DNA of 64,000 bases from Microvirga tunisiensis (GTDB lineage: Bacteria > Pseudomonadota > Alphaproteobacteria > Rhizobiales > Beijerinckiaceae), in NCBI RefSeq assembly GCF_009296175.1, contig NZ_VOSK01000012.1, positions 1 through 64,000 of the forward strand. The letters run 5' to 3'. Of the stretch, positions 6,060-21,807 are shown one piece after another. The notes beneath the pieces are model-generated. The model was not told the DNA's origin and did not search any database. It worked only from the letters and a program-made list of their open reading frames with translations. Every line of letters begins with the position of its first letter. Positions within the stretch are counted from its first letter, which is position 1. Both the position numbers and the translations under genes were made by a program.

Positions 6060-7094
6060 TCAGACCCGGCCGGCCGAGACTGCACCTCCCAAAGTCGCTA
6101 CTTTACGGGCTGCCTTATTGTCATCAGATTGATCTTCCGCGAACCAAGCAATTGTCGCCTTTAGACCGGCGTCCAGAGATGTGCGTGGCGCCCAGCCAAG
6201 CAGTTTTTTGGCGAGGGAAATGTCGGGGCGACGGCGACGTGGGTCGTCGACCGGCAGTGGTCGCGTGACAATGCGGGATGAAGACCCCGTCATAGCCAAG
6301 ACCTTTTCGGCCAGATCACCGACAGTGAGTTCAACCGGATTACCGAGGTTCACGGCGCCAGGGAATGATTCGTCATAGGCCATGAGACGCACGAAGCCAT
6401 CGACGAGATCTGACACATAGCAGAACGACCGCGTCTGGCTTCCATCTCCATAGACTGTAATGTCGTCACCTGCGAGAGCTTGGCAGATAACATTCGAAAC
6501 CACACGTCCGTCGTCAGCTCGCATGCGCGGACCATAGGTATTGAAGATCCGCGCCACGCGGACATCAGCTCGCCGTGAACGGTCAAAATCGAACGTCAGC
6601 GTCTCCGCGGCCCGCTTGCCTTCATCATAGCAGGCACGTGGGCCTGTAGGATTGACATTGCCCCAATAGCTCTCCGTTTGTGGATGAACCTCGGGATCGC
6701 CATAGATCTCGCTTGTAGAGGCGAGAAAGAAGCGGGCACCTGTCGCTTCAGCGAGGGTGAGAAGGCTATGTGTACCGACGACGCTCGTCAGCATGGTATG
6801 CTCGGGATCTGCCTGATAATGCGGAGGAGAGGCTGCACAGGCAAGATTGAAGATTTCATCGATCTTCACGCGTTTGGAACGCAGCCGAGCTGGCAGTGGC
6901 TTGATGATATCGCTGTCAATGATATCGAAGCGCGGCTCACGCTCTAGATGACGAATATTCTGCTTTCGTCCCGTTTGAAAATTGTCCAGAGCGATCACAT
7001 GAGCGCCTTCACTGAGAAGAGCATCGCAGAGGTGAGACCCGAGGAATCCGGCCCCACCTGCTACGAGAACATGCTTACTATTGCCATTCTTCAT
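6060..7094 (-). CDS. UDP-glucuronate decarboxylase (UDP-xylose synthase) family SDR
   Basis: 344 residues, an extended SDR with the Rossmann motif GGAGFLGSH (13-21), [14 protein letters not shown] (from 126) and catalytic Y156-x3-K160 in CYDEGK, followed by IFNTYGPRM. These segments are those of UDP-xylose synthase, which oxidises and decarboxylates UDP-glucuronate to UDP-xylose in the cytosol; dTDP-glucose dehydratases lack the CYDEGK signature. It is the last gene of the leftward glycan operon, 110 bases after the CgeB-like glycosyltransferase. UDP-xylose or a related sugar is therefore a likely donor for the neighbouring transferases. The substrate is inferred from motifs alone. Confidence 0.85.
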
Positions 7095-7204
7095 GAGACG
7101 CTCTCCTTCTCAGACCCGCAAAGGGCCTCAAGGTACAAACCTACTCTGCCCAACATCGAAGCGTGGCATTTGTTCAATGCCATCTTTAGAATCTATTCAT
7201 AGGA

Positions 7205-8314
7205 TCAGGATTCAACTGCCAAAGCGAGCGGCTGTTCCTGACGTCGATGTCGAATGGCTTCAAAAAGGACCTGCTCCATCGACGCTGCACGATGGGCGGA
7301 CGTATGCTGCTTGAGAATGCGATGCCGGGCGCGCGTGCCCAGAGCTCTTCTCTGATCATCGGACCATGTACCGAGTACTCTGAGAACATCGTCAGGGGTG
7401 CGAGCGAGGAGGATCTCGCGATCCGGTTCAAGAAGCGTTTCGATTCCTTCCCATGTGTCGGAAATTATCGGCGTTCCACAGGCAGCGGCTTCGAAAAGAC
7501 GAACACTTGGGCTGTATCCCGCCCGGATCATGTCGGCCCGTGTGACATTGAGGGTGTACCGGCTCCGGGCATAGAAGGCTGGATGATCGTTTGGCGGCAC
7601 GTGATCGATACGCTCAACATTGCCCGGCCACTCAATTCCTATCGGATACTGCGGGCCAGCCACCGCGAAACGCAGATGAGGTGCTTTTCGGGCCGGCTCG
7701 ATCAGGAGCCGTTCTAGCGTCGGCTGTCGATCCGGACTGTAAGTGCCGAGGTAACTGAGATCCCACCGCTTCTCTCGATCACGCGTCGGATATGCCTCGG
7801 GATCGACGGAGCAGTACAGAGCTCTTGCGGCCGGCGAGCCATACCGCTCTATGAGCAGATTGAGGGTCGGTCCGCCGGTGAAGGAAAAATAGACATCGTA
7901 GTGAGGAATCAGGTTCGGCGTGAGATATTCGTAATCGCCTCTCTCCAGCTTCGCGAGTGTTACGGGCGTATCGATGTCATAGAATGCCACCACACCATTT
8001 GCCACCCGCTGAACGTAGCGACCGACATCCACACCTTGTGGCACATAGGAGCCGACGATAACTGCATCGGCACCTTTGATTGTCTCTCGATACCGCTCAA
8101 GATCCTTCAGATTGGAATAGAACTCCAGACGGCAAAAATCAGGATCCTGCAGATCGCGATGGGAGGCATACCAGGGCACGTCGCGCTCAAGGAACAGTAC
8201 ATCATGCCCGCGCGCTGCGAAGGCCCTCAATAACGCACGGAAGGTTGTCGCATGACCGTTTCCCCACGAGGAGGACAAACTCAACCCCAAAACGACGACG
8301 CGGAGCTTGGTCAC
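7205..8314 (-). CDS. CgeB-like GT-B glycosyltransferase (paralogue A)
   Basis: 369 residues. The N-terminus has the signature SSSWGNGHATTFRALLRAF, and the C-terminal donor-side half carries SPSVRLFEAAACGTPIISD and a following acidic WEGIE segment, as in the CgeB / Glyco_trans_1_2 family. Four proteins of this type lie in the cluster (also 8311, 9402 and 16023); this one is closest to the one at 16023, and both contain a VFYDLDTPVT- or VAFYDIDTPVT-type motif. It starts with ATGA overlapping the upstream gene by four bases, so the two are translationally coupled. It is cytosolic; donor and acceptor are unknown. Confidence 0.85.
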   Translation of the reverse strand: MTKLRVVVLGLSLSSSWGNGHATTFRALLRAFAARGHDVLFLERDVPWYASHRDLQDPDFCRLEFYSNLKDLERYRETIKGADAVIVGSYVPQGVDVGRYVQRVANGVVAFYDIDTPVTLAKLERGDYEYLTPNLIPHYDVYFSFTGGPTLNLLIERYGSPAARALYCSVDPEAYPTRDREKRWDLSYLGTYSPDRQPTLERLLIEPARKAPHLRFAVAGPQYPIGIEWPGNVERIDHVPPNDHPAFYARSRYTLNVTRADMIRAGYSPSVRLFEAAACGTPIISDTWEGIETLLEPDREILLARTPDDVLRVLGTWSDDQRRALGTRARHRILKQHTSAHRAASMEQVLFEAIRHRRQEQPLALAVES

Positions 8315-9405
8315 GCCACGCTCCTTTCATGCTTCTGGGAGGCCTCCTCGCGCAGGATAACATCCACCTCGGCACCACGGCGGGTATAGGTATGCTCGGC
8401 CATGATGCGCGCCCGAGCGGCCTCGCCGATAGCGCGAGCTCGCTCCGGTGTCAGGGCCTCGACATGGTCGGCCACGTCCTTGCCGTCGCGCGCCACCAGA
8501 ACCTCCTCTCCATCCTTCAGGAAGATTTCCAGCCCGACCCAGGCATCGGTGATCAGGCATGCACCGGCTCCCGCGGCCTCGAAGACGCGGGTTGCGGGTG
8601 AGTAGCCCGTACTCGCCATCGAATCACGGGCAATGTTGAGAACGGCCAGCGGGCTCGTGTTGAAAGCGTTATGATCACGCGTATAGACATGGCCGATATG
8701 GCGTACGTTCGACGGCATATCTTTTGTTTCCCAGCCATTGCCTCCGATCAGGAAGCTGCGATCCGGCAGACGCGCAGCTGGTTCCAGGAAGAACTGCTCC
8801 ACGCGCGCCTCACGATCGGGCAGGCGATTGCCGAGGAAGGACAGATCCACCTTGAAGCGTTCATCTGCTGGGACCGGATGATGGGTTATCGGATCGCAGG
8901 CATTGTAGATCGGGATGCAACGGCGGGCGCCGAAACCCTCATAGGATTCGATCACCGGCGGACCGCCGCCATAGGTGAGCACAAGATCGAGAGCCGGCAT
9001 CGTGCGATGAAGCGGATGGTCGGGGCTTTCGCGCATTTCGGCCAGGGTTGCAGGTGCATCCACGTCCCAGAAGATGCGGATGGCATCGGGACGCGAGGCA
9101 GCGACGATCCCTTCCAGCAGTTCGCTATCGAATACACCGACACCGGAGGCCTTCACCACCACATCGGCTTTTGCTGCCTCGGCCACAACACCGCGCATGG
9201 CCTCTGCCGTCGCGGGGTAGACCTTCACCTCCGCCCAATCCGGTTGCTCGATGTCCCGGTGCTTCTGGCGATCGAAAGCATCGGGTTCATAGAAAGTGAT
9301 GCTGTAGCCGCGCCGAGCGAGATCGCTGAGGAGACCGCGATAGTAGGTAGCAGCCCCATTCCAATACGAGGACAGAAGGCTGGAGCCGTAGAAGGCGATC
9401 TTCAT
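8311..9405 (-). CDS. CgeB-like GT-B glycosyltransferase (paralogue B)
   Basis: 364 residues from ATG 9405, which overlaps the upstream gene's stop by four bases; a longer open frame to 9639 merely runs antiphase inside that gene. The N-terminus (IAFYGSSLLSSYWNGAATYY) aligns with the SSSWGNGHA motif of its neighbours, and the C-terminus carries SPATRVFEAAGAGACLITD. IRIFWDVDAPATLAEM corresponds to the YDIDTPVTLAKL motif of paralogue A. It is a predicted cytosolic sugar transferase in a chain of tightly overlapping genes, probably making successive linkages of one glycan. Confidence 0.84.
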   Translation of the reverse strand: MKIAFYGSSLLSSYWNGAATYYRGLLSDLARRGYSITFYEPDAFDRQKHRDIEQPDWAEVKVYPATAEAMRGVVAEAAKADVVVKASGVGVFDSELLEGIVAASRPDAIRIFWDVDAPATLAEMRESPDHPLHRTMPALDLVLTYGGGPPVIESYEGFGARRCIPIYNACDPITHHPVPADERFKVDLSFLGNRLPDREARVEQFFLEPAARLPDRSFLIGGNGWETKDMPSNVRHIGHVYTRDHNAFNTSPLAVLNIARDSMASTGYSPATRVFEAAGAGACLITDAWVGLEIFLKDGEEVLVARDGKDVADHVEALTPERARAIGEAARARIMAEHTYTRRGAEVDVILREEASQKHERSVA

Positions 9406-10514
9406 GCGGGTATCTCCATCGGCGTCGAGGCGCCGTGATTTGCAAGAATGACGAGGAGTTGATCGGCCCGATGAGCACAGGAATGACGGCTCTGGATAGC
9501 CTTGAGTCCATTCTCTATCAACGCGCTGCGCAGATTGGGATCGTTGAGAACCGCTTTCATGTGGCGCTCCATCTGCACCTCGTCCTGGGCAACCAGATAA
9601 TCCGTCCCGGGACTGAACAAGCCTTCTGAATCGCTCCACGGTGCGGAGATCAGCGGGATGCCGCAGGCGAGAGCTTCAAATACCCTGATGGTGGGAATAC
9701 CCGGGAGTATGTCGACATAAAACCGCCGCGGCACATGCACAGTCGCCAGATGTCTTGCAAAAACCTCAGGTGCACGAGCGTTCGGCAGCCAGCCACGATA
9801 GGTCACACCATAGCGGGCGAGTGTTTCAAGAGCATCTTCCGGGTAACGGACACCATAGATATCAAGAGGCAGACCGACGGTCTGCGCAGGGCGGAAGAGG
9901 AAGCTTTCCAGTTCCACACCGCGCTCGTCGTCGCCCCAGTTGCCGATCCACACCACGCCCTTCCGTTCTGTCTCCTGCGCAGGAGGGTGAAAGAGCCGGG
10001 TATCGGCGGCCTCGTGCCAAACATGGACGCGCTCGCCCCAGCCCCAACGGCGGTATACCTCCGCGAGCGCTTCGCCAAAGGCGAGGACGCCGTCATAGCC
10101 GTTGAGATCGAACTGGCGGATGGCGTTGGGATCGCTCACCGCCCTGTGGTGCGTGTCGTGGAAGAGGAGCCTGAACCGGCCGCCCTGCCGCCGCACCTTC
10201 CCGATGGCAGCAACCAACCAGGGATCGCTCCATTCGTGCACGATGACCACGTCGGCATCGGCAAGCACTTCTTCGAGATCGAGGTCGGGATCAAAGACTG
10301 TCGAGGACAATTCAGGGTAAAGGCTGCGATAAGCGTCGAGTCCTGCCTCTCCGTGATCCTTCAGGAGGTTCTCCAGGCTCCAGGCTCCCCGCGGCTCATA
10401 GGCGATGACTGCATGTCCACGGTGAGCGAGTTCACGCAGAACTCCACGCAGGAAATGCGCGTTCCCATGGTTCCAGCATGAGGCAAGGGAATGCGTGAAA
10501 TAGATAAACTTCAT
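9402..10514 (-). CDS. CgeB-like GT-B glycosyltransferase (paralogue C)
   Basis: 370 residues beginning MKFIYFTHSLASCWNHGNAH, a diverged form of the N-terminal signature of the two downstream transferases. The C-terminal half has PTIRVFEALACGIPLISAPW, the usual donor-binding segment. It lacks the YDIDTPVT-like motif; instead LLFHDTHHRAVS sits at about that place, so its acceptor or donor may differ. It overlaps both neighbours by four bases (ATGA), so the glycosyltransferases from 11644 down to 7205 form one coupled unit. Confidence 0.83.
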   Translation of the reverse strand: MKFIYFTHSLASCWNHGNAHFLRGVLRELAHRGHAVIAYEPRGAWSLENLLKDHGEAGLDAYRSLYPELSSTVFDPDLDLEEVLADADVVIVHEWSDPWLVAAIGKVRRQGGRFRLLFHDTHHRAVSDPNAIRQFDLNGYDGVLAFGEALAEVYRRWGWGERVHVWHEAADTRLFHPPAQETERKGVVWIGNWGDDERGVELESFLFRPAQTVGLPLDIYGVRYPEDALETLARYGVTYRGWLPNARAPEVFARHLATVHVPRRFYVDILPGIPTIRVFEALACGIPLISAPWSDSEGLFSPGTDYLVAQDEVQMERHMKAVLNDPNLRSALIENGLKAIQSRHSCAHRADQLLVILANHGASTPMEIPA

Positions 10515-11644
10515 GCCGCAGCTCCCTCAGGGGAGGACATCAGAGATCTCTGACACAGGACCGAATGGTAGGTGTTCAGAACACCCGCGCTCATGGCATC
10601 GACAGTGTAGGCATCAGCCCGTTCTCGGGCAGCGCGTCCCAGAGCCGCGCGGCCTTCAGGATCCTGCAAAAGGTGGTCGATCACTTCAACAGTTGCACTC
10701 TCATCGCTCGGATCAACGAAGAGTGCGGCACCCTCCCACAGTTCACGGAAAGTTGGAATGTCAGACAGGACCAGGGCACATTCCATCTGAGCGGCTTCCA
10801 GCACCGCGAGACCGAAGGGTTCATAACGAGCCATCGAGATGAAGATCGGCCTTGCGCTCAGATGCTGCGCAATCTCCGCGTCGCTTAACCGACCAAGCAC
10901 TTTGGCGTGGGCAGCCTCAACATGCGTACCGTTTGGCCCTTCAAGAGACCCGGCGGCGAGAACCGGAACAGTGAGGTGAGATGCGACTCGATCAATGACT
11001 GCGAAATTCTTGCCTTCGTCCCAGAGGCGCCCAGCCGTGAAGATGATATGTTCATCGGGTACGCTTCTGCCCACCGGCATAGAACGTCTGCCATTACTGA
11101 CGACTGTGGGTGTCTGCGCAAGACCGTATGCCTGAGCCGTAGCTTGAGCGAATGCCAGCGTTGGCGCGAGGAGCCGGTCGGAAGAGCCATACCCTTTCGC
11201 GACGAGCTCCGTCCGCCAGGCGAATTCTTCTGGCAGCGATCCGCCTTTGACTGCCTGCCACCAGGTTGCGACGCAGGAGTGACAGACCGCCACGACAGGA
11301 ACGTCGAACGGAGCATTGGCCGCCAGAGCTGGGGAATTGAGATGAAGAAGATCCGGTCGGATTTGCGCTGCAATATGGGCAATCGTTCGGCTGGTCTCCT
11401 CAACCTCGCATCGATTGCGAGCCGTCCAATCTAGTGGAAGACCAGTTAGGATAAGCTTTGCACCAGTGCTTTCGGCCATAGCTAGCTGATCTGCAGAGGG
11501 GGAAGGCCCCAGCACTGCGATTGTCGTCGTGACACTGTGCGCACGCAGACCCTCCGAGAGATCCAGCGCATATTGCCAGACCCCACCGACTGCATCTGCT
11601 GTCATAAGCACATGCAGATCTGTTTTCTCGTCAGGCCATGCCAT
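10511..11644 (-). CDS. GT4-type glycosyltransferase
   Basis: 377 residues, a classical GT-B retaining transferase: an acceptor-side N-terminal half with the glycine-rich entry ADAVGGVWQYALDLSEGL, and a donor side with FTAGRLWDEGKN (the usual G-R-x-x-x-x-K) and YEPFGLAVLEAAQM (E-x7-E). These are GT4 hallmarks. Unlike the three CgeB-like genes downstream, this one may add the first sugar to the acceptor. It lies 42 bases after the SDR gene at 11687 and overlaps the next gene by four bases. Confidence 0.86.
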   Translation of the reverse strand: MAWPDEKTDLHVLMTADAVGGVWQYALDLSEGLRAHSVTTTIAVLGPSPSADQLAMAESTGAKLILTGLPLDWTARNRCEVEETSRTIAHIAAQIRPDLLHLNSPALAANAPFDVPVVAVCHSCVATWWQAVKGGSLPEEFAWRTELVAKGYGSSDRLLAPTLAFAQATAQAYGLAQTPTVVSNGRRSMPVGRSVPDEHIIFTAGRLWDEGKNFAVIDRVASHLTVPVLAAGSLEGPNGTHVEAAHAKVLGRLSDAEIAQHLSARPIFISMARYEPFGLAVLEAAQMECALVLSDIPTFRELWEGAALFVDPSDESATVEVIDHLLQDPEGRAALGRAARERADAYTVDAMSAGVLNTYHSVLCQRSLMSSPEGAAA

Positions 11645-11686: not shown

Positions 11687-12805
11687 TCATGACAGAGCCT
11701 CTGCATTCTGCAGGCTAGAAGGCGACGAACTCAGACGCGCGAGGCCCCTCTCCTCCTGCAGCCATTCCGCCAGCGTTGCCACACCCTTGAGCCACGAAAT
11801 CGGCTGCTTCAGCCCGAGCTCCTGAGTCGCGAGGCGGGTATCGGAGACGTAATAGCGCTGATCGCCGGCGCGCCAATCGGCATAGATCGTCTCGACTGGA
11901 TGGCCGATGACATTTTCAATATGGGTGATGAGCTGACGGAGACTGATGGCATTTGCCGGGCCGCCGCCAAGGTTGAAGGCCCGCCCCTGAACTGCCTCGA
12001 TAAGTTTCCATGCGGAAGCATAAGCAGCGACGGCATCGGAAATATCGAGCACATCGCGGACCTGACAGCCATCGCCGTAGATGGTAATCGGCTCGCCCTG
12101 AAGAGCTCGGATCAGGAAATGAGCCACCCAGCCCTGATCCTCGGTTCCCATTTGTCGCTGACCATAGATGCAACTCATCCGCATGACGCAGGTCGGAAGC
12201 CCAAAGGAACGGGCATAATCCAGAACATATTGATCCGCCGCTCCCTTCGAGCAGCCATAGGGTGTGTGGAAGTCGAGAGGCCGATTTTCGCCAATTCCCG
12301 TATTCCTGATTGCAGGGTCACGGGGTTTGTAGGCATCGTTCGTTTTCTCCAACTCCACATCCCCAAGGTCCCCATAGACCTTGTTCGTGGAGGCAAAGAT
12401 CAACGGCACCCTCTCGCCACGCTGTCTGAGCGCATCGAGCATATTCAGGGTGCCGCGAATATTGATCTCGAAGTCCTCGCGGGGATCAATAAGGCTGGTC
12501 GTTACCGCAACCTGAGCCGCCATGTGAAACACGGCCTGCGCTTCGCAGGCGGCATCGGCGACAGACGTCTCATCGCGGATATCACCGATCACAGTGGAGA
12601 TCTTGCTCGGATGCCGTTTCTTGAGCCATTCGAGGTTGCGGTCGACGCCGGATCGGGCCAAGGCGTCATAGATCAGAACATCGTGTCCCTCGCTGGCAAA
12701 ATGGTCGGCGAGATTGGAACCAATGAAGCCAGCGCCACCTGTCACCAGAACGGGTCGATGGCGAAGTACGGCTGGCGCAGCAGCCGATGTGTCTGATGCT
12801 TTCAT
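11687..12805 (-). CDS. NAD-dependent sugar epimerase (CDP-paratose 2-epimerase-like SDR)
   Basis: 372 residues, an extended SDR with GGAGFIGSN near residue 23, FASTNKVYGDL, and a YGCSK motif giving the catalytic Y-x3-K. STNKVYGD followed by a long insertion before PYGCSKGAADQY is typical of the CDP-paratose/CDP-tyvelose 2-epimerase branch, though UDP-sugar epimerases are not excluded. It should use bound NAD to epimerise a nucleotide sugar in the cytosol. Start and stop overlap the neighbouring SDR by four bases, making this the second gene of the leftward operon. Confidence 0.82.
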   Translation of the reverse strand: MKASDTSAAAPAVLRHRPVLVTGGAGFIGSNLADHFASEGHDVLIYDALARSGVDRNLEWLKKRHPSKISTVIGDIRDETSVADAACEAQAVFHMAAQVAVTTSLIDPREDFEINIRGTLNMLDALRQRGERVPLIFASTNKVYGDLGDVELEKTNDAYKPRDPAIRNTGIGENRPLDFHTPYGCSKGAADQYVLDYARSFGLPTCVMRMSCIYGQRQMGTEDQGWVAHFLIRALQGEPITIYGDGCQVRDVLDISDAVAAYASAWKLIEAVQGRAFNLGGGPANAISLRQLITHIENVIGHPVETIYADWRAGDQRYYVSDTRLATQELGLKQPISWLKGVATLAEWLQEERGLARLSSSPSSLQNAEALS

Positions 12806-13914
12806 GCCACCAAACCTCGTGCTTCCAGCTCCCTTCGGGCTTCGTTAACGAGATCCTTGGCTTCCTGCTTGGCTACCCATTCGGCAAGTTCCGCCAAGCC
12901 TTCCGCGAAGTCTTTTCCTGGCTGATAGCTCAATTCCTGCTGGATCTTGCTGATGTCGGCGATGCAATGGCGAATGTCACCAATGCGTGCCTTGCCGGCA
13001 ATCTCCGGCGCCATCGGCCGATTCATCGCCTGAGACAGGAGCTCCGCGACTTCGGAGACGGTACGGTCCTGCCCGCTTCCAACGTTGTAGACGCCGCCCG
13101 GCGCCTTTTCGTGCTCTAGCGCCAGAACAAATGCCTGCGCGACATCCTCCACATGAACGAAGTCGCGACGCTGTTGGCCGTCCTCGAAGATCATCGGCGG
13201 CTGGCCATTGTGGAGCCGCGACGCGAAGATGGCGAGAACGCCTGTATAGGGATTGGACAGAGCTTGTCCTGGTCCGTAGGCGTTCCAGAGCCGGAGCGCC
13301 ACACCCTCCATGCCATAAGCGGGGCACAGTGTCAGCGTCAGTCGCTCTTGAACGTATTTCGAGAGCGCGTAGACCGAGGCGAGCGCGGGCTTCTTCCACT
13401 CGGGCGTCGGCACCGGGATCAGAGAGCGCCCCTGTTCGTCCAATGGATCCCAAGGATCGCTCTCATTCGCGCGTGGCGTTCGAACAACATCCTCTCGGAT
13501 TCTCCCATCCGGATCCTTATAGAGGCCCTCGCCATAGATGCTCATGGACGAGGCGACAACCACCCGCTTCACCGGATTGTCGATGAGCTGCTGGAACAGC
13601 ACAGCTGTGCCGTAATCGTTGACGGACACGTAGCGGTCGACCGCATACATGCTCTGACCGACGCCAACCTCGGCTGCAAGGTGGACTACCTTCGTGGCCC
13701 CCTTGAGCGCCCGCAGGAGTGCTGCCTCATCGCGGACGTCCCCTACGACGACCTCGACGTCCGGACCGAGCCCGTCGGCCTGCGTCCTGTCACCGTGCAC
13801 CTGCTCGATGAGACTGTCGAGCACGCGCACCTTGTGTCCACGCTCCAAGCAGGCGCGCGCAACATAGCGCCCGATAAAACCTGCCCCGCCGGTAATAAGG
13901 ATCGTATCCGTCAC
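12802..13914 (-). CDS. NAD-dependent epimerase/dehydratase (UDP-glucose 4-epimerase-like), first gene of the leftward operon
   Basis: 370 residues from GTG 13914, chosen because GGAGA lies about 7 bases upstream and the protein then opens directly with the Rossmann strand (TILITGGAGFIGRYVA). The frame continues to 14370 but that part shows no homology to the fold. Other landmarks are ASSMSIYGEG, a catalytic YALSKY (Y-x3-K), LWNAYGPGQ and RDFVHVEDVAQAF. It is an extended SDR probably converting one UDP- or CDP-sugar into another. It leads the operon running to 6060 and is divergent from inositol-phosphate synthase. Confidence 0.83.
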   Translation of the reverse strand: MTDTILITGGAGFIGRYVARACLERGHKVRVLDSLIEQVHGDRTQADGLGPDVEVVVGDVRDEAALLRALKGATKVVHLAAEVGVGQSMYAVDRYVSVNDYGTAVLFQQLIDNPVKRVVVASSMSIYGEGLYKDPDGRIREDVVRTPRANESDPWDPLDEQGRSLIPVPTPEWKKPALASVYALSKYVQERLTLTLCPAYGMEGVALRLWNAYGPGQALSNPYTGVLAIFASRLHNGQPPMIFEDGQQRRDFVHVEDVAQAFVLALEHEKAPGGVYNVGSGQDRTVSEVAELLSQAMNRPMAPEIAGKARIGDIRHCIADISKIQQELSYQPGKDFAEGLAELAEWVAKQEAKDLVNEARRELEARGLVA

Positions 13915-14104
13915 AAGATGTCTCCAGATTGGCTTCTGGCCCAAGCGCCGATGAATCAGACAGGAGACGACAACCCATTCCGCAACCGGAAATGTGACGC
14001 AGAACATGCACATATTCCAGCTTAGGAGCAGGCATTTCAGCAGACCTCGCCAAACGAGGACTGCGCCATAGATCTCCCTCACAAGCTTGAGTTTGCGTTC
14101 AGGA

Positions 14105-14129
14105 AACTCCGAGGGATCATCTTTGTTCC
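14105..14129 (-). promoter_or_regulatory. possible EcfG-type promoter for the leftward glycan operon
   Basis: On the minus strand, GGAAC (14129-14125), 16 bases, then AGTT (14108-14105). This is one base off the CGTT consensus. It would give a leader of about 185 bases before GTG 13914. Taken alone the match is weak; a good site on the opposite strand nearby strengthens it. Confidence 0.33.
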
Positions 14130-14195
14130 TGACTTCGAAGCAGTAGTTTGGGCGCTCGGCTGTGAAGACAAGAGTCACAGGTGCGGAATCTGAGC

Positions 14196-14221
14196 GGAAC
14201 AACCAACCTTCTTCAAACGTT
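14196..14221 (+). promoter_or_regulatory. EcfG-type promoter for the inositol/glycan operon
   Basis: GGAAC at 14196-14200, exactly 17 bases, then CGTT at 14218-14221, a full match to the alphaproteobacterial general-stress consensus. Transcription would begin near 14228, about 100 bases before ATG 14327. Confidence 0.66.
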
Positions 14222-14326
14222 GAAGGCCAAGCTTTTTGGGAAAGTTCAGGTCGGATGCCTGCGGCCTGCCGGTGTCTTTTTGTCTGAAAAGAGAGCATCC
14301 GTCCGGCCATACATGGGAGATCCGTC

Positions 14327-15409
14327 ATGAGTTCGAGGAAGGTCCGCGTCGGGATCGTAGGCGTCGGCAATTGTGCCTCGTCCTTCGTGCAGGGCCTCTC
14401 CTACTACAAGGATGCGAAAGGCAACGAGCCGGTCCCTGGACTGATGAATGTTGAGCTCGGCGGATATCATATCAGTGACGTCGAAGTGTCTGCGGCCTTC
14501 GACGTGAATGCTTCAAAGGTGGGGTGCGATGTTGCCGAGGCAATCTTCGCGGAGCCTAACAATACGCAGCGGTTTGCCACAGTCCCGCAGAGTGGGATTA
14601 TCGTCAACCGGGGCAGGACACTTGACGGGCTTGGCAAGTATTTGCGCGAGACGATCGAGGAGTCGCCCGACGATGAGGCCGACGTCGCGGCGATTCTGCG
14701 GCAGTCAAAAACGGATGTCCTCGTCTCTTACCTTCCTGTCGGTTCACAGAAAGCCACCGAGTGGTATGCCGAGCGGGCGCTTGAGGCGGGATGCGCATTC
14801 GTGAACTGCATCCCGGTCTTCATTGCCTCAAATCCGGAATGGCGTAAGCGGTTTGAGGAGCGCGGGCTCCCCATCATCGGCGATGACATCAAGAGCCAGG
14901 TGGGCGCCACCATCGTTCACCGCGTACTCGCCAATCTCTTTCGTGAACGTGGCGTGCGACTCGATCGCACTTATCAGCTTAATTTCGGCGGCAATACCGA
15001 CTTCCAGAACATGCTGGAGCGCGAGCGCCTCGAGTCGAAGAAGATATCCAAAACGCAGGCCGTCTCAAGTCAGCTCGACATTCCCCTGCCCGCAAGCGAC
15101 ATCCATGTGGGGCCGAGCGATCACGTGCCGTGGCTCACCGATCGTAAATGGGCCTACATCCGGCTCGAAGGCACGACCTTCGGGGGCGTGCCGCTGAACA
15201 TGGAAGTGAAGCTCGAAGTCTGGGACTCCCCGAATTCCGCTGGCATCGTGATCGATGCAGTGCGCTGCGCGAAGCTCGCCATGGATCGTAAAATCGGAGG
15301 TGCACTCACTGGTCCGTCCAGCTACTTCATGAAGTCTCCGCCACAGCAATTCACCGATAACGAAGCCCGCGATAGAACCATCCGCTTCATCAACGGTGAT
15401 GAAGATTAG
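14327..15409 (+). CDS. ino1: inositol-3-phosphate synthase
   Basis: 360 residues of the short actinobacterial/archaeal type. It converts glucose 6-phosphate to 1D-myo-inositol 3-phosphate using bound NAD. Seen: Rossmann start [61 protein letters not shown] and [14 protein letters not shown], all signature blocks of the family; the catalytic lysines fall in the DDIKSQ and DRKIGGAL regions. Ribosome site GGGAGA precedes ATG. This is the first gene of the rightward operon under a good EcfG-type promoter. Inositol synthesis is uncommon in alphaproteobacteria, so the product probably feeds the neighbouring glycan or phospholipid chemistry. Confidence 0.93.
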
Positions 15410-15426
15410 GGCGCAGGAGGGTCAAG

Positions 15427-16026
15427 GTGACCACCACGTTCTTTCTCGTGCGCCATGCAGCCCATGATCGGGTCGGCACTATTCTGTGCGGACGCATGGC
15501 GGGAGTGAATCTCGGCTCCGTCGGGAAAGTTCAAGCAGAACGCCTGGCTCAACGCTTTGCCAGCGAGAACGTGGCCTGCATTCGTACAAGTCCTCTTGAG
15601 CGGGCGCTGGAGACGGCACAGCCTATTGCATCCCGCCTCGGACAGCCTTTCCAGATTTGCGAGGCCATCAACGAAATCAATTTCGGCAGATGGTCCGGTA
15701 CGAGCTTCGACGCGCTGAGTCGGGATCCGCACTGGTCCTCGTGGAACAGCGCGCGCAGCACCAATCGTCCCCCTGAGGGCGAGACGATGCTGGAGGCGCA
15801 AGGACGCATTGTCGGAGCCATGGAACAATTGCGCAGCCTTTACGCTGAACGTTCGATCATCCTTGTGAGCCACGGCGATGTGATCAAGGCTGCCCTCCTT
15901 TACTATCTCGGCATGCCAATCGATGCCTATTGCCGCTTTGAGGTGGAGCCCGCCTCGATCTGCACTCTCGTCGTGGGCGGCTGGGGTTCCAAGGTTCTGC
16001 GGTTGAACGAAGTGGTGGCCGCATGA
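15427..16026 (+). CDS. histidine phosphatase superfamily protein
   Basis: 199 residues from GTG 15427 after a strong AGGAGGG site. The RHG-type motif is RHA (H10 nucleophile); the second catalytic histidine is H149 in LVSHGD, and RTSPLERALETA is the usual R-x-x-S-x-x-x-R-A-x-x-T-A block. Such enzymes dephosphorylate sugar phosphates and other small molecules. Lying between inositol-phosphate synthase and a glycosyltransferase, it could release free inositol or trim a pathway intermediate; that is inference. It overlaps the next gene by four bases (ATGA). Confidence 0.87.
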   Translation: MTTTFFLVRHAAHDRVGTILCGRMAGVNLGSVGKVQAERLAQRFASENVACIRTSPLERALETAQPIASRLGQPFQICEAINEINFGRWSGTSFDALSRDPHWSSWNSARSTNRPPEGETMLEAQGRIVGAMEQLRSLYAERSIILVSHGDVIKAALLYYLGMPIDAYCRFEVEPASICTLVVGGWGSKVLRLNEVVAA

Positions 16027-17132
16027 AGATCATCATATTCGGCCTGACCATCTCCTCATCTTGGGGCAACGGCCACGCGACCCTCTGGCGTGGCTTGTGT
16101 CGGGCGCTCGCGAAGCGGGGGCATAGGGTCGTGTTCTTCGAGAAGGACATGCCCTATTATGCGGCCAACCGGGACTTTTTCGAGCTTCCGGGCGGCGATC
16201 TCATTCTCTACCAGGATTGGGACGGCATTCGCCTCCAGGCTGAGATGGAGCTCAAGGATGCGGACGTGGCCATGGTGACGTCCTATTGCCCGGACGGCAT
16301 CGCCGCCGGCGATCTCCTGTTGACTGCACCACGCGCCACCCGCGTTTTCTACGATCTCGACACTCCGGTGACCTTCTCGCGTCTGGATGCAGGCGAGCCG
16401 ATCACCTACATCGGCCCTCATGGTCTTGGCAATTTCGACTTGGTCTTGAGTTACACGGGAGGCCAAGCTCTTGGGAAGCTACAGGCCGAGCTTGGGGCAA
16501 GACGCGTTGCTCCCCTTTACGGTCATGTGGACCCGGATGTGCATCGCCCGGTGCACATCATCCAGCATTACGTCTCCGATCTTACCTACCTCGGCACCTA
16601 TGCGGCGGATCGTCAGGATGCTCTGCAGCGTCTCTTCATCGATCCTGCCGCTCGCCGGCCGGATCAGCGCTTCCTGATCGGTGGGGCGCAGTATCCGGAC
16701 ACATTTCCCTGGCAGCCCAACATTCATTTCGTGCGGCATCTTCCTCCGCCAGAGCACCCCGCCTTCTTCTCGTCCTCACGCCTGACGCTCAATATCACGC
16801 GGCAGGCCATGGCGGAGATGGGCTGGTGCCCCTCCGGGCGCCTGTTCGAGGCAGCGGCTTGTGGTGTGCCCATTCTCTCGGATTGCTGGGAAGGCCTCGA
16901 TAGCTTCTTCGAGCCTGGCAAGGAGATCCTGATTGCGGGGAGGACGGAGGATGTGGTCGCAGCTCTCGACCTCACGGACACCGAGTTGAAGCGTATTGCC
17001 AAGGCAGCCCTGGAGAGGGCGCTCGAAGAGCATACGTCGGAGCGCAGGGCAATGGAGCTTGAGATCTTGCTCGAAGGCTCCAGTTCCCTCTCGCCCTCGA
17101 CCGGCGGCCGCGCCGCCATGATGGAGGCCTGA
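16023..17132 (+). CDS. CgeB-like GT-B glycosyltransferase (paralogue D)
   Basis: 369 residues. It opens IIIFGLTISSSWGNGHATLW and carries RVFYDLDTPVTFSRLDAGEP and PSGRLFEAAACGVPILSDCW. It is the same length as, and collinear with, the protein at 7205 in the leftward arm, so the two look like an old duplication split across the divergent operons. It is a predicted cytosolic transferase; donor and acceptor are unknown. It is coupled to the phosphatase gene upstream by a four-base overlap and followed after two bases by the nucleotidyltransferase. Confidence 0.86.
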   Translation: MKIIIFGLTISSSWGNGHATLWRGLCRALAKRGHRVVFFEKDMPYYAANRDFFELPGGDLILYQDWDGIRLQAEMELKDADVAMVTSYCPDGIAAGDLLLTAPRATRVFYDLDTPVTFSRLDAGEPITYIGPHGLGNFDLVLSYTGGQALGKLQAELGARRVAPLYGHVDPDVHRPVHIIQHYVSDLTYLGTYAADRQDALQRLFIDPAARRPDQRFLIGGAQYPDTFPWQPNIHFVRHLPPPEHPAFFSSSRLTLNITRQAMAEMGWCPSGRLFEAAACGVPILSDCWEGLDSFFEPGKEILIAGRTEDVVAALDLTDTELKRIAKAALERALEEHTSERRAMELEILLEGSSSLSPSTGGRAAMMEA

Positions 17133-17134
17133 TC

Positions 17135-17947
17135 ATGTGGGGAATCATACCTGCGGCAGGGATCGGTAGCCGCATCCAGCCGCTGGCGTTCTCGAAGGAG
17201 CTTCTGCCCGTGGGAAGCCGTCTCGACAATGGCGTCGAGCGTCCCTGCGCCGTCAGTGAATACCTTGTCGAGCGCATGATTCATGGCGGGGCGGACAAGA
17301 TCTGCATCGTCATTTCCCCCGGCAAGTCTGACATCATGGAATATTATGGAGCAAGCTACGGCAGCGCGTCCATCGCCTATGTGGTCCAACCGCAGGCTCG
17401 TGGCTTGTGCGATGCGATCTTCCAGGCGGCTCCGCTCATTTCCGCCGACGAAAGCGTGGTCGTCGGCCTGCCCGATACGGTCTGGTTCCCTGAGAAAGCG
17501 CTGGCGGAACTGCCGGAAGAATCTCTCTCGTTCCTTCTCTTTCCTGTCGACAATCCGGAGGTCTTCGACGCGGTGATCCTGGACGAAACGATGCACGTCC
17601 AGGAGATCCAGGTGAAGCAGGCGGATGCCGCCTCGCGCTGGATCTGGGGTGCTTTCAAGATGCCGGGCCATGTTCTGGAAGAGCTCCGTCAGCTTTGGAT
17701 TTCACGCAATCACGAGGACGAGTATTTCGGCACGCTCGTGAATGCCTATCTGGCTGAAGGAGGCAAGGCTATCGGCGTGAAGGCCGGCGAATCCTATGTC
17801 GATGTTGGAACCTTGCACGGCTACCGCGCCGCCATCGGACTGCTGAGCGAAGCGGCCCAGCACGACACCATGACCGGCGCCCGCGTAGCCCTTGGCTGGC
17901 CGGCGGGTCGGCTACCGCGCGGACTTCATGACTTGAACAGGGAGTAA
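17135..17947 (+). CDS. sugar-phosphate nucleotidyltransferase (RmlA/GalU-like)
   Basis: 270 residues with the nucleotidyltransferase entry GIIPAAGIGSRIQPLAFSKE, a variant of G-x-G-x-R-x2-P-x5-P-K in which S-K replaces P-K, then VVGLPDTVWF (metal-binding D) and a late SYVDVGTLHGY block. It should activate a sugar 1-phosphate, or possibly inositol phosphate, with an NTP; substrate and nucleotide are not readable. Activated sugar from this gene could feed the transferases. It follows the glycosyltransferase by two bases and precedes the methyltransferase by eight. Confidence 0.82.
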   Translation: MWGIIPAAGIGSRIQPLAFSKELLPVGSRLDNGVERPCAVSEYLVERMIHGGADKICIVISPGKSDIMEYYGASYGSASIAYVVQPQARGLCDAIFQAAPLISADESVVVGLPDTVWFPEKALAELPEESLSFLLFPVDNPEVFDAVILDETMHVQEIQVKQADAASRWIWGAFKMPGHVLEELRQLWISRNHEDEYFGTLVNAYLAEGGKAIGVKAGESYVDVGTLHGYRAAIGLLSEAAQHDTMTGARVALGWPAGRLPRGLHDLNRE

Positions 17948-17955
17948 TCGTCACG

Positions 17956-18729
17956 ATGAATGCCATCGATCCCACGCCGCCTGACGAAATCCGCCGGAAA
18001 GCCGAAGCGCTTGGGCCCTGGTTTCACAACATCGAGCTGAAGGGAGGCGTCTGGACCGCACCCAACCATTTCCTCGGCAATTATCCCGCCATTAAATGGC
18101 AGCGATTTGCCGACGCCATTCCGCAGGATCTCACCGGCAAAAGTGTGCTCGACATCGGCTGCAACGGCGGTTTCTATTCCATGGAGATGAAGAAGCGCGG
18201 TGCGGAGCGCGTGCTCGGAATCGACTTCGACGAAGCTTATCTCGCGCAAGCCCGTTTCGCTGCGCAGACGATGGACTACGACATCGAGTTCCGCAAACTC
18301 TCCGTCTATGATCTAGGGCAGCTCGGCGAGCGCTTCGACGTCGTGCTTTTCATGGGCGTTCTCTACCACCTGCGCCATCCCTTGCTGGCACTCGACCTGA
18401 TTCACGAGCACGTCGCCAAGGACCTCCTCGTGTTCCAGTCGATGCAGCGTGGATCAACTGATGTCATGCCTGTCGAGGAGAACTATACTTTTTGGCAGAC
18501 GGAACACTTCGACGATCCACGCTATCCGAAGATGCACTTCATCGAGCATCGCTACGCCGACGATCCTACGAACTGGTGGGCGCCGAATACCGCCTGCGTC
18601 GAAGCCATGCTCCGCAGCGCCGGGTTCGAGATCGTCCAGCATCCGGAAACCGAAGTTTACATCTGCCGCCGTGTCGATGCCCCACCCGGGGCGGGCGCCG
18701 TCTATCCGGCCCAAGGGAGAAATGCATGA
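17956..18729 (+). CDS. SAM-dependent methyltransferase (Rta_06860-like family)
   Basis: 257 residues. The class I SAM motif VLDIGCNGGFYSMEMKKRGA begins near residue 65, with the acidic motif II (IDFDEAYL) and FDVVLFMGVLYHLRHPL after it. From memory this matches a family named after Rta_06860 of Ramlibacter tataouinensis, a desiccation-tolerant desert bacterium; that should be checked. It probably O-methylates a sugar or cyclitol of the cluster product. It overlaps the glycosidase gene by four bases (ATGA at 18726). Confidence 0.82.
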   Translation: MNAIDPTPPDEIRRKAEALGPWFHNIELKGGVWTAPNHFLGNYPAIKWQRFADAIPQDLTGKSVLDIGCNGGFYSMEMKKRGAERVLGIDFDEAYLAQARFAAQTMDYDIEFRKLSVYDLGQLGERFDVVLFMGVLYHLRHPLLALDLIHEHVAKDLLVFQSMQRGSTDVMPVEENYTFWQTEHFDDPRYPKMHFIEHRYADDPTNWWAPNTACVEAMLRSAGFEIVQHPETEVYICRRVDAPPGAGAVYPAQGRNA

Positions 18730-19655
18730 TCGAAGCTGCAATGATCTGGAACGAGCCCAACAACAAGTCCCATTGGGACCCGGAGATCGATCCGGATTGG
18801 AAGCTCTTCTCCGAGATGGCGATTGCCGCAGGTCAGGCGATCAAGGCCGAGAATACCAATCTGCCGCGCGTGCTCGGTGGCATCTCACCCATCGATCCAG
18901 GCTTCATCAAGAAGCTGGAAGACCATGGTGCCATGGATCACCTGGATGTCGTGGCCGTCCACGGGTTCCCACTCGACTGGAATCTGTGGCAGATCCACGA
19001 TTGGCCTGCGAAGATCGACGAAATTAGCACGGTGACGGACAAGCCCATCTGGGTCAGCGAGGTCGGCATCTCGACCTTCGGTGCCGAGGAGGTTCAGGTT
19101 TGGGGTTTGAACCGGACTGCCGAACTCCTGATAGGCAAGGTGCCGAAGATCCATTGGTATAGCCTGTACGATCTTCCCCGCGCCTGGGAGGCCACGACGC
19201 GTCACAGGGAGGCCGAAGGCTCATCCTATTACAGGCATTTTTACATGGGCCTTCTGCGCGAGGACGGCTCGCCGAAGCCCGCTCTCGAGGAGTTCGCGAA
19301 GTACACGCCGCAGATGGGCTTGTGCCAATGGTTCCACTATGAAGACCACCGCCTCGACGATGCAGTAACCTGGATGAAGCGCCTGGGCGTGAAATACCTG
19401 CGCACCGGCCTATCCTGGGCCGACAGCTTCCGCCCGAATGCGCTGGACTGGTTCGACCGTCAGATGGAAGCGCTTGCGGATTTCGATGTGACGGTGACCT
19501 TCTGCTTCACGCCGGAGCATCGTGGAATTGCGCCACATCACACCAGCGCACCGCAGGCAAAAGAAGAATTTGCGGAATTCTGCGCCAGCATGATCCGACG
19601 CTATGCACCTTCGAACCGGTCAGCTCAATCGGACAAGATTTTGGAAGTTCTCTGA
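18726..19655 (+). CDS. clan GH-A glycosidase (beta-xylosidase-like), apparently circularly permuted
   Basis: 309 residues from ATG 18726 (GGGAGA upstream, four-base overlap with the methyltransferase). The acid/base motif WNEPNN sits at the very start (E10), and the nucleophile motif PIWVSEVGIS follows (E112), then KIHWYSLYDLP (about 141-151). The segment normally found before WNEP in this (beta/alpha)8 clan, LGVKYLRTGLSW then FDVTVTFCFTPEH, comes last (about 220-265). Strand order thus reads 4-8 then 1-3. There is no signal peptide, so it should be cytosolic. It may trim or transglycosylate the cluster's product, possibly at xylose. A strong terminator follows. Confidence 0.75.
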   Translation: MIEAAMIWNEPNNKSHWDPEIDPDWKLFSEMAIAAGQAIKAENTNLPRVLGGISPIDPGFIKKLEDHGAMDHLDVVAVHGFPLDWNLWQIHDWPAKIDEISTVTDKPIWVSEVGISTFGAEEVQVWGLNRTAELLIGKVPKIHWYSLYDLPRAWEATTRHREAEGSSYYRHFYMGLLREDGSPKPALEEFAKYTPQMGLCQWFHYEDHRLDDAVTWMKRLGVKYLRTGLSWADSFRPNALDWFDRQMEALADFDVTVTFCFTPEHRGIAPHHTSAPQAKEEFAEFCASMIRRYAPSNRSAQSDKILEVL

Positions 19656-19681
19656 ACCTGTTTTAAGCGGCTCCATAGGAA

Positions 19682-19710: not shown

Positions 19711-19741
19711 CAGTATTTCTAGGATCAATTAGAACGGCGCC

Positions 19742-20755
19742 CTATCGGCCATAGATCCGATCGAGCACTCTTGCGACATCCACCAGATGCTCCGCAGCCG
19801 GATCGAAGCGTTCACCCGCCGCCAAGCGTGAGGCCCAGTCCGTAGCCGCCCGCCCGCCCCACTCATCTGGCGGCGCAGCCAACGTCTCGCGCGACGTGCC
19901 GCGATAGCGCTCCGCAATGAAGTCATAGAAAGATCCGTTCACGTTGCGCAGTGACAAGCCACCCTGTGTCCCATAGAACGTGGCTGAAATCATCGCATCG
20001 CATCCTGCCTGAAGCCGCCAGGAGCAGGCGAGTTGCATCACAGCACCCGTCTTCAGCTCCACGGTCGCGACGGCATAATCCTCCACCTGCGATGCGGTAT
20101 CCGTCAGCGGCGCACCGCCTGTGAAGAGCTTGCCCGTGACACTCGCGATATCTGGATTGTTCAATGTCCACAGAGCGAGATCGACAAGATGAACGCCAAG
20201 ATCCATCACGCAGCCGCCGCCGGAGAGATCCGGATCATAGAACCACGGCTTGTCTGGCCCATAGGCGTTGTGGAATACGAGATCCACCGCGTAGACGTGT
20301 CCCAGTTCGCCTGAATCGACGATTTCGCGGATGCGGCGCATCCCTTCCGTAAAGCGGTAAGAGAGATCGACGCTTAACAGCCGGTCGGCGTTGCGTGCGG
20401 CATCGACCACCGCCTGCACCTCTGCCACCGTCCGGCCAAGTGGCTTTTGGCAGAAAACGGCGACGCCACGCTCCAGAGCCAGGATCGACTGTTCTGCATG
20501 CATGGCGCTTGGGGTCGCAATGACAACACCATCAACTCCGAGATCCAGGATCTCATCGAGTGTCGAGACCAGCTTCGCGGCGGGAGCGAGCTTCCCGGCC
20601 TCCGCGGCCATATCCGGCGACGGATCGGCGATAGCGGCGACATCGATGGCTCCAGTACCGAGGATCGCCTGCATGCGGTTCCGACCGATCCAGCCGACAC
20701 CGAGAAAGCCGAGACGCGGGCGAGCGGGCGAGACTTCAGGAGGCGTCCCGTGCAA
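19742..20755 (-). CDS. Gfo/Idh/MocA-family oxidoreductase
   Basis: 337 residues with an N-terminal Rossmann fold (RLGFLGVGWIGRNRMQAIL), the family's K-P motif as FCQKPLGRT (the usual E is Q), and a C-terminal half with GGGCVMDLGVHLVDLALW, where the second catalytic His sits. Such enzymes oxidise or reduce sugars or inositols with NAD(P). Next to an inositol-phosphate synthase operon, an inositol or inosose substrate is tempting but unproven. The start is uncertain: TTG 20755 has no clear ribosome site and probably relies on coupling to the dehydrogenase ending 14 bases upstream. Confidence 0.82.
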   Translation of the reverse strand: MHGTPPEVSPARPRLGFLGVGWIGRNRMQAILGTGAIDVAAIADPSPDMAAEAGKLAPAAKLVSTLDEILDLGVDGVVIATPSAMHAEQSILALERGVAVFCQKPLGRTVAEVQAVVDAARNADRLLSVDLSYRFTEGMRRIREIVDSGELGHVYAVDLVFHNAYGPDKPWFYDPDLSGGGCVMDLGVHLVDLALWTLNNPDIASVTGKLFTGGAPLTDTASQVEDYAVATVELKTGAVMQLACSWRLQAGCDAMISATFYGTQGGLSLRNVNGSFYDFIAERYRGTSRETLAAPPDEWGGRAATDWASRLAAGERFDPAAEHLVDVARVLDRIYGR

Positions 20756-20769
20756 AATCTGTTGCGTTA

Positions 20770-21807
20770 TCAGAACGTCACCAGAGCTTTGAGGAAACCG
20801 TCCGGCCGGTCGCGCGTGGCATTAAGCGCCTCGTCGAGCCTTTCCAAAGGATAGCGGTGCGTATAGAGAAAACTCGGATCGAGGCGCCCGGACGCGATGG
20901 CATCCACCGCCTCGTGCAGGCCCTGGACATAGACGTTCGAATCGCGTTCATGGGCATTGATCACATCGATGCCACGCCAGTTCCAGAGCCACATATTGAC
21001 CTGTCGTGGACCATCCTGATGGTAACCAGCGACGATGAGCTTTCCGCGTTCACGGGTCAGTTCGCCCGCGAGATCGAGCGGCCATTGCTTTCCGACGGCC
21101 TCGATCACCCGGTCGCAGAATGTGCCACCGGTCAGTTCCTTGACCTGCTCAATGATCGCGGAGTGATCCTCCATCGGAATCGTCTCGGCTGCGCCCATGC
21201 GGCGGGCGAGATCAAGCGAGTATGGCCGCCGCGAGATCGCAATCACGCGCGCACCGGCGTCTGTTGCAAGCTTCGTCAGGATCGCGCCGAGAAAGCCGAT
21301 GCCGATGATTGCGACTGTTTGCCCAGTCTCGATTTCGCTGCGATGGAAGATATTCATAGCGCAGCCGAGCGGCTCGCCGGGAAAAGGCTGGCCTGCGAGA
21401 GCATCCGGCAGGCGCACCACCGCATCGGCCTCGGCCAGATCGTATTCGGCATAGGATTTATAGGAGAGTGCCGCCACTCGGTCGCCGATCGACAGCCCTT
21501 TGACACCCTCGCCGATAGCATCCACGAAGCCCCAGGCCTCGTGGCCGAGGGCGCCTGGCTCGGTGGGATACTGCATCCATTCGGGGCCGGCCCAAGGCGT
21601 CAGGTTCGAAGCGCACACGCCGCAACCTTCCAAGCGTAGCCGTACCTGACCGGGTCCCGGTTCCGGACGTGCAACCTCGCTGATCTGGATCTGACCAGGT
21701 CCCGTGACAATGGCGGCTCGCATGGTTCCTGGAACCCCGGCTTGCCCGTCGCTCCTCTTGGTCAAAGAAGCGGAAATGTCGCTGCTCGCACCATTCTCGT
21801 TCAGCAA
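20770..21807 (-). CDS. zinc-type medium-chain dehydrogenase
   Basis: 345 residues, or 317 from ATG 21723. I prefer TTG 21807 because GGAGGG stands at good spacing, but ATG 21723 also has AGGA. Catalytic zinc ligands are visible (GCGVCASN and GHEAWG), and the Rossmann motif is VAIIGIGFLGAILTKLA. The structural four-cysteine zinc lobe of classical alcohol dehydrogenases is absent. It is a predicted NAD(P)-dependent oxidation of a polyol or sugar alcohol. It forms a two-gene unit with the Gfo/Idh/MocA protein, so the pair may act on one sugar or cyclitol in sequence. Confidence 0.83.
   Translation of the reverse strand: MLNENGASSDISASLTKRSDGQAGVPGTMRAAIVTGPGQIQISEVARPEPGPGQVRLRLEGCGVCASNLTPWAGPEWMQYPTEPGALGHEAWGFVDAIGEGVKGLSIGDRVAALSYKSYAEYDLAEADAVVRLPDALAGQPFPGEPLGCAMNIFHRSEIETGQTVAIIGIGFLGAILTKLATDAGARVIAISRRPYSLDLARRMGAAETIPMEDHSAIIEQVKELTGGTFCDRVIEAVGKQWPLDLAGELTRERGKLIVAGYHQDGPRQVNMWLWNWRGIDVINAHERDSNVYVQGLHEAVDAIASGRLDPSFLYTHRYPLERLDEALNATRDRPDGFLKALVTF

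Follow-up and report, generated by a model that had tools for sequence, protein, structure and literature searches.

The window analysed here, the first 64,000 nucleotides of contig NZ_VOSK01000012.1 of Microvirga tunisiensis (assembly GCF_009296175.1), contains at positions 6060-21807 a block of 15 genes, SDR_A to ADH. In this block a leftward group of nucleotide-sugar and glycosyltransferase genes (the left arm) adjoins a rightward group (the inositol arm) that begins with an inositol-3-phosphate synthase gene, Ino1, and ends with GHA, a gene for what appears to be a circularly permuted glycosidase. Gene identities were assigned by Pfam, NCBIfam and PDB sequence searches, which recovered every gene that an initial annotation of the region had listed in the two operons; GFO and ADH, which lie within the range that it covered, had been left out of its list. 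In the left arm, on the minus strand, SDR_A (6060-7094; 344 aa) resembles UDP-glucuronate decarboxylase (UDP-xylose synthase), matching UXS1 structures with 350 bits in a phmmer search of solved structures (runner-up, 146 bits). Three CgeB-like glycosyltransferases (Glyco_trans_1_2, PF13524) are specified by Cge1 (7205-8314; 143 bits), Cge2 (8311-9405; 364 aa from its ATG at 9405, and 132.8 bits for the longer open reading frame) and Cge3 (9402-10514; 120 bits), and a GT4-family glycosyltransferase by GT4 (10511-11644; PF00534/PF13439, 54 bits). SDR_B (11687-12805) is like CDP-tyvelose 2-epimerase (phmmer, 282 and 265 bits against 9rl0 and 1orr) and SDR_C (12802-13914) like nucleotide-sugar 4-epimerases. 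The probable start of SDR_C is the GTG at 13914, which gives 370 aa, the length found at locus L220; a TTG at 14370 was discarded because the resulting frame overlaps Ino1. Of the three SDRs, only SDR_A resembles UDP-xylose synthases.

On the plus strand, Ino1 (14327-15409; PF01658, 126 bits) is followed by HisP (15427-16026), a branch 1 histidine phosphatase (PF00300, 154 bits), Cge4 (16023-17132), a fourth CgeB-like glycosyltransferase (PF13524, 134 bits), NTP (17135-17947), similar to sugar-1-phosphate nucleotidyltransferases (PF00483, 42.6 bits), MT (17956-18729), a methyltransferase of the TIGR04290 family (385 bits; cut-off, 300), and GHA (18726-19655; 309 aa from the ATG at 18726). The block closes on the minus strand with GFO (19742-20755), a Gfo/Idh/MocA oxidoreductase, and ADH (20770-21807), a Zn-type dehydrogenase. 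Four-base overlaps, reported earlier as many, number six: Cge1/Cge2, Cge2/Cge3, Cge3/GT4, SDR_B/SDR_C, HisP/Cge4 and MT/GHA. The best-founded functional names appear to be UDP-xylose synthase-like for SDR_A, CDP-tyvelose 2-epimerase-like for SDR_B and TIGR04290 for MT.

The GHA protein begins with MIEAAMIWNEPNN, a start identical in the 20 loci compared, and its predicted acid/base glutamate is residue 10. Its strands run in the order 4-8 and then 1-3, and not in the order 1 to 8 that is standard in clan GH-A. In its native order, GHA matched PslG with 14.6 bits, over the second half of PslG, and the match of its C-terminal part to the first half of PslG was negligible (-0.5 bits). When the halves of GHA were swapped in silico, the match rose to 31.7 bits (E 8.7e-7) and ran nearly end to end. 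A profile built from 25 GHA relatives reached 32.5 bits (E 5e-7), over the second half of PslG only. The AlphaFold2 model of GHA (pLDDT 81.2, pTM 0.82) has the eight strands of a (beta/alpha)8 barrel; the motif WNEPN (E10) follows the strand at 4-8 and the motif WVSE (E112) lies within the strand at 108-113, both glutamates being invariant in the 25 relatives aligned. We take these motifs to be the acid/base (after strand 4) and the nucleophile (strand 7) of a clan GH-A enzyme. The evidence that we regard as decisive for a permutation comes from natural proteins of loci L170 and L174, 705 and 695 residues long, where the GH-A domain keeps its normal order and is fused to SDR_B. When GHA was compared with them by BLASTP, each aligned in two segments whose order was swapped (E 1e-19 and 7e-9 for one protein, 7e-23 and 7e-10 for the other). 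GHA is thus best described as a clan-A glycosidase barrel that has been circularly permuted in nature, its chain opening with strand 4. Its earlier description as a GH-A enzyme holds as far as a clan-A-type glycosidase goes; the permutation had passed unnoticed.

The permuted gene was present in 120 of the 128 loci scanned; the other eight (by subtraction, L170, L174 and L200-L205) lack it. Both glutamates were found in all 120 permuted genes, 119 by pattern and that of L175 by eye, a count of which half is not independent, since the scan pattern and the bait contain the first glutamate, and in which many loci share genomes. A tree was built after in-silico rearrangement, with 47 permuted representatives thinned for likeness from 139 loci. 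One branch (96/92) set all 47 apart and another (100/99) the eight unpermuted rows, which is consistent with a single origin of the permuted form; deeper rooting is unsafe because of long branches, the most marked being those of the outgroup and the decayed L196 row.

A natural circular permutation of a catalytic barrel has a precedent in the GH70 glucansucrases, in which, by comparison with GH13, the (beta/alpha)8 barrel runs in the order N-alpha3-beta4...beta8-alpha8-beta1...beta3-C, and is thus cut beside strand 4, as GHA is (PMC11046441). The GH70 enzymes act on sucrose to make alpha-glucans, whereas GHA, a clan-A-type protein of 309 aa, is encoded in a biosynthetic operon. GH70 and GH13 belong to clan GH-H, a clan different from that of GHA. 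Among proteins with a solved structure, the best sequence relative of GHA is PslG (4zn2, 5bx9), which has the same catalytic motifs but an unpermuted strand order in a 416-residue chain. PslG acts within the Psl locus, and the Psl operon is not known to contain Ino1.

Conservation of the block was surveyed with Ino1 in 61 genomes, the source genome included: 37 Microvirga and 24 members of other families within the order. Twenty-seven of these genomes (20 Microvirga and seven from other families) had an Ino1, the matches going down to 50% identity. The stretches examined around it measured ∼20 kb in the 19 other Microvirga and up to 20 kb in the seven genomes of other families. A check of synteny had been proposed with the initial annotation, and indeed the full block from SDR_A to ADH was present in a single order in 17 of the 19 Microvirga relatives. 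Locus L041 retains 13 of the 15 genes and L040 six (SDR_A, Ino1, HisP, Cge4, NTP and GHA), its left arm being on a separate contig. The seven loci from other families comprise a reduced cluster (L045), one with MT, HisP and Ino1 (L043, in genome G040) and five with Ino1 alone (L047 has a weak ADH match besides). A second Ino1 of the source genome, 93% identical, was seen on a 10-kb contig without other cluster genes (L042; G000:C175:195-1274); it is either a paralogue or contamination, the contamination of this genome being 8.78%.

Other genera, among them Sinorhizobium, Roseomonas and Azospirillum, also have related clusters. These were compared in 83 loci obtained with GHA as bait, namely the best 80 of at least 473 relatives plus three plasmid loci; 65 of these had full flanks. 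Since these loci were picked by likeness to the GHA of the window, they are not a measure of general gene frequency. MT was present in 76 of the 83, HisP in 75, Ino1 in 72, Cge2 in 62, Cge3 in 60, GT4 in 59 and SDR_A in 27. Among the 65 with full flanks, 61 had Ino1, 53 at least three of six left-arm genes and 52 both; outside Microvirga (n = 52), the corresponding values were 48, 41 and 40. Nine full-flank loci had Ino1 but at most two left-arm genes: Cge1 and Cge2 in three of them, none in six. Among the nine, L065 alone was covered by a genome-wide search. Whole-genome searches found Cge2 in all eight genomes examined that carry permuted GHA, and in four of these (G766, G635, G584 and G022) the inositol arm was on a different contig from this gene or 0.45 Mb distant. 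Two pairs travel together in the 65 loci: Cge4 and NTP (both in 28, one alone in 1) and GFO and ADH (both in 23, one alone in none). When the TIGR04290 model was used as bait, 14 of 398 Pseudomonadota genomes scored above the cut-off, the source genome included; the other 13 all had a GHA relative (11 permuted, two unpermuted) and a Cge1 nearby, and 11 had Ino1 and 11 HisP. That the two arms cooperate, as was proposed earlier, is strengthened (52 of 61 Ino1 loci have at least three left-arm genes, and the association extends beyond the genus), although not proved; the left arm, and part of the inositol arm, also occur alone.

The loci fall into two types. In a GHA search of 385 alphaproteobacterial genomes, 15 gave a match: eight were continuous and permuted, six consisted of two matches in unpermuted order and one (G534) was weak and single. 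In all seven unpermuted loci studied (L200-L204, L174 of G373 and L170 of G323) the GH-A domain and SDR_B form one open frame, MT and SDR_A are present, and no match to Ino1, HisP, Cge4 or NTP was detected in the stretches. An Ino1 query that had matched 27 of the 61 genomes surveyed found nothing in the eight genomes concerned (those of the seven unpermuted loci and G534). Among the 37 Microvirga, 20 combined Ino1 with permuted GHA and matched Cge3 strongly, two (G018 and G031) had the left arm and the unpermuted fusion with neither Ino1 nor permuted GHA, and the remaining 15 had none of Ino1, either GHA form or the left arm, apart from weak Cge3 matches in four. The association of Ino1 with permuted GHA in this genus was significant (Fisher test, P = 6e-11, relatedness ignored). 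The two types are also represented in model rhizobia, Sinorhizobium meliloti pSymB carrying the permuted enzyme and Rhizobium etli the unpermuted fusion. The methylated, perhaps xylosylated inositol product suggested in the initial annotation has to be qualified in this respect, since MT and SDR_A are also found in Ino1-less clusters and are not specifically tied to inositol; the grouping of Ino1, HisP and MT in G040 would still fit a methylated inositol.

The fused proteins differ in which half looks functional. In L220 (G018; 12997-15060) and L221 (G031; 14092-16155), the dehydrogenase motif of the fusion reads LDCSS or YGCSR and both catalytic glutamates are kept, and a separate SDR_B keeps YGCSK. 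In G766, which has Ino1 and the permuted GHA, the left arm lies 0.45 Mb from these genes; its SDR_B keeps the SDR motif, but the unpermuted domain fused to it has lost both catalytic glutamates (by eye). A simple reading of these three genomes is that the pathway would need one working GH-A enzyme and one working SDR_B, in either linkage. One such unpermuted GH-A domain, fused to SDR_B and without either glutamate, is the one at L215 (5835-7784), in a genome that also has the permuted enzyme. We interpret the whole set of loci as one glycan system that has a core version and a version with inositol, in which the glycosidase is rewired.

An EcfG-type site, GGAAC-N17-CGTT, lies at 14196-14221 (+), 105 bases ahead of the Ino1 start, as the initial annotation had proposed. 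An imperfect site directed towards the left arm, GGAAC-N16-AGTT, lies at 14105-14129 (-), and a full match on this strand occurs in 10 of the 19 Microvirga relatives. Seven EcfG-type sites were counted in the window against a mean of 1.54 in shuffled sequence, and none of 100 shuffles reached seven. The motif agrees with published EcfG motifs (PMC3892343, PMC4814048). To compare loci, GGAAC-N15..18-CGTT was sought within 400 bases upstream of Ino1. It was present in 18 of the 19 Microvirga relatives and in 40 of 99 loci overall, a number that includes duplicate loci of the same genomes, compared with a shuffle mean of 0.62 (maximum, 4); a site on the opposite strand, towards the left arm, was present in 22 of the 99. 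When eight stretches from other genera were scanned whole, strict sites were found in three (L052, L083 and L214) and none in the other five (S. meliloti L050, Roseomonas L051, L206, L207 and L209). In the two of these compared gene by gene, L052 and L214, no site appeared from its position to head an operon of the cluster. EcfG, the sigma factor of the general stress response, probably activates the operon in Microvirga; a stress promoter is well supported in this genus and much less so outside it.

The cluster itself, its conservation, the permutation, the two types and the promoter motif can be read from the sequences compared; from these we infer every reaction, the product and its induction by stress. 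Our preferred interpretation, held with slightly better than even confidence, is that we have here, in its inositol form, a cytoplasmic system conserved among alphaproteobacteria for making a small O-methylated, pentose-containing oligosaccharide, and that both arms serve this one product. The core would consist of the left arm, MT and one GH-A glycosidase. SDR_A would supply UDP-xylose and SDR_B and SDR_C epimerised nucleotide sugars, from which GT4 and Cge1-3 would build a chain; the TIGR04290 enzyme would methylate this chain, and the GH-A enzyme would trim it or transfer part of it. To this core glycan system the inositol arm would have been added: Ino1 would make inositol 3-phosphate, HisP would take off a phosphate, and the chain would start from or end on inositol, with Cge4 and NTP adding a further sugar in some lineages. 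In the inositol form the GH-A enzyme would be the stand-alone circular permutant, and in the Ino1-less clusters an unpermuted domain fused to SDR_B. We suggest, tentatively and with more doubt than confidence, that the glycosidase was permuted and freed from its fusion to the epimerase when the inositol branch joined, and that it now acts as a transglycosidase or editor, joining or trimming the glycan at inositol. If so, clan GH-A would provide a case of natural circular permutation linked to a product switch, both forms being alive in one genus; the permuted and unpermuted pair in sister clusters of that genus would offer material for the study of fold rewiring and of whether such a change follows a change of product. 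The system is conserved and open to genetic tests in model rhizobia (S. meliloti and R. etli) and in other soil genera, and, should the product be a stress solute, it would bear on the drying tolerance of soil and inoculant bacteria. In the part of the open-licence literature covered by our searches, no description was found of the cluster, of its two-type structure or of a permuted clan GH-A enzyme.

Several observations weigh against this interpretation. Genome G040 has Ino1, HisP and MT on an 8-kb contig (G040:C22), lacks GHA and shows only weak matches to the left arm, so that some genes of the inositol arm do not depend on the company of a left arm; this lowered our confidence in a joint product and raised that in separate pathways. 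Six of the seven Ino1 genomes from other families have neither GHA nor a strong Cge3 match, and five loci with Ino1 and GHA (L075, L119, L124, L129 and L131) contain no left-arm gene within their stretches, the only part of these genomes searched. The replacement of one GH form by the other is not strict, both being present in G635, where the fused one is cut by the contig end. GFO and ADH occur without Ino1 in the unpermuted loci L220, L221 and R. etli (no Ino1 in the stretch), and therefore provide no evidence for inositol chemistry. In addition, the EcfG-type site precedes Ino1 in only nine of 65 loci outside Microvirga, and the GHA glycosidase might be degradative. One alternative is that the inositol and glycan arms are separate pathways that share no more than location and regulation, Ino1, HisP and perhaps MT making free or methylated inositol (a solute or lipid precursor) and the glycan containing no inositol. 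It would account for left arms in genomes without Ino1, for Ino1 in the six genomes of the order with no strong left-arm match as well as for its company of HisP and MT in G040, and for the distant arms of G766, G635, G584 and G022. However, Ino1 and permuted GHA match perfectly across the 37 Microvirga (20 with both, 17 with neither), all 20 having the left arm, and the glycan-linked GH-A enzyme changes its topology along with Ino1, which separate pathways do not predict. We consider this alternative rather unlikely.

A joint product made in the cytoplasm has also to be weighed against a surface polysaccharide or lipopolysaccharide, for which the genes for export and polymerisation would lie elsewhere in the genome. 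Surface polysaccharide loci typically contain nucleotide-sugar SDRs together with several glycosyltransferases and a PslG-like glycosidase, and a gene of the polysaccharide pyruvyl transferase family is present in addition in S. meliloti and in four others of the 83 loci. Nevertheless, the Pfam matches of the 15-gene block include no flippase, polymerase or glycan exporter, in agreement with the initial annotation, and none appeared among the annotated block genes of S. meliloti, Roseomonas, Azospirillum and R. etli, for which the gene table was incomplete and the rest of the genomes was not searched; this reading seems improbable. As for GHA itself, its likeness to clan GH-A might be due to chance, the protein being two unrelated pieces or a non-catalytic barrel. 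No family passed its Pfam cut-off (Glyco_hydro_cc reached 14.7 bits and GH53 14.0 bits), no NCBIfam model matched, and the best Foldseek matches to the model were mostly barrels of many types with low TM-scores. None of the Foldseek matches to a GH-A enzyme spanned the whole length; Foldseek aligns in sequence order, and this result was thus counted neither for nor against a permutation. Against a chance resemblance stand the swapped-order matches of both halves to the same unpermuted proteins, the nearly end-to-end match of the half-swapped sequence to PslG, the invariance of both glutamates in 25 relatives and the eight-stranded model, which together make this reading very improbable.

Mycothiol biosynthesis (MshA-D plus Ino1) resembles the present system in that a single locus combines a TIGR03450-related Ino1 with a phosphatase and a GT4 enzyme, but here nucleotide-sugar SDRs, CgeB-like enzymes, MT and GHA take the place of the other partners. 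Ino1 scored 553 bits with the mycothiol-type model TIGR03450, below its cut-off of 638; the cluster GT4 reached 20 bits of the 462 required for MshA, and the best scores in the source genome were 232 of 485 bits for MshC and 29 of 163 for MshD. A mycothiol-like thiol was therefore ruled out on the MshA, MshC and MshD scores (MshB was not searched), as the initial annotation had already concluded. Other candidate chemistries were set aside. A CDP-inositol or di-inositol phosphate route through NTP was rejected because the likeness of this protein to RmlA-type enzymes is weak (30 bits in the PDB sequence search) and fewer than half of the 65 full-flank loci have the gene. A methylated inositol as the sole product of MT was not adopted, as MT is present in all seven unpermuted, Ino1-less loci, though G040 would be consistent with it. 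For GFO and ADH, a role as inositol dehydrogenases found weak scores: the best NCBIfam model for GFO was IolG, with 109 bits of 355, and ADH reached 92 of 450.

The existence of NCBIfam models TIGR04290, to which MT belongs, and TIGR04295 shows that NCBI curators have modelled parts of this neighbourhood; no paper in the open-licence literature searched names TIGR04290. The TIGR04295 gene, a B12-binding radical SAM gene (B12_rSAM_oligo), or relatives of it were seen in 24 of the 83 loci (e.g. L052, 7706-8998); unlike these, the Microvirga blocks have no radical SAM gene. Genes of the pyruvyl transferase family and of F420 hydrogenase type are attached to the cluster in five of the 83 loci, among them L050 (14876-17351); these five come from Sinorhizobium, Devosia and one other member of the Rhizobiales.

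Beyond the block, a possible accessory gene at 29437-31179 (+), 9.8 kb from GHA, encodes a 580-aa protein with no Pfam family, which is predicted to combine phosphoribosyltransferase-like and choline-kinase-like parts. Its model (pLDDT 85.7, pTM 0.87) matched choline and hexosamine kinases and, more weakly, uracil phosphoribosyltransferases. Relatives occur in 40 of the 83 loci, in 21 of these at most 1.5 kb from Ino1 or GHA, a closeness seen in genera other than Microvirga. They were found in none of the seven genomes with the unpermuted form and in three of 12 others tested (10 of which carry permuted GHA), a patchy occurrence that marks the gene as optional. PrkA, YhbH and SpoVR genes adjoin the cluster at 22947-27786 (-), and SpoVR and YhbH also adjoin it in the 17 Microvirga relatives with the full block. 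One BrkB-family gene (4679-5869) lies on the opposite side of the cluster, and a second (31401-32303) has an EcfG-like site just ahead of it, at 31314-31339.

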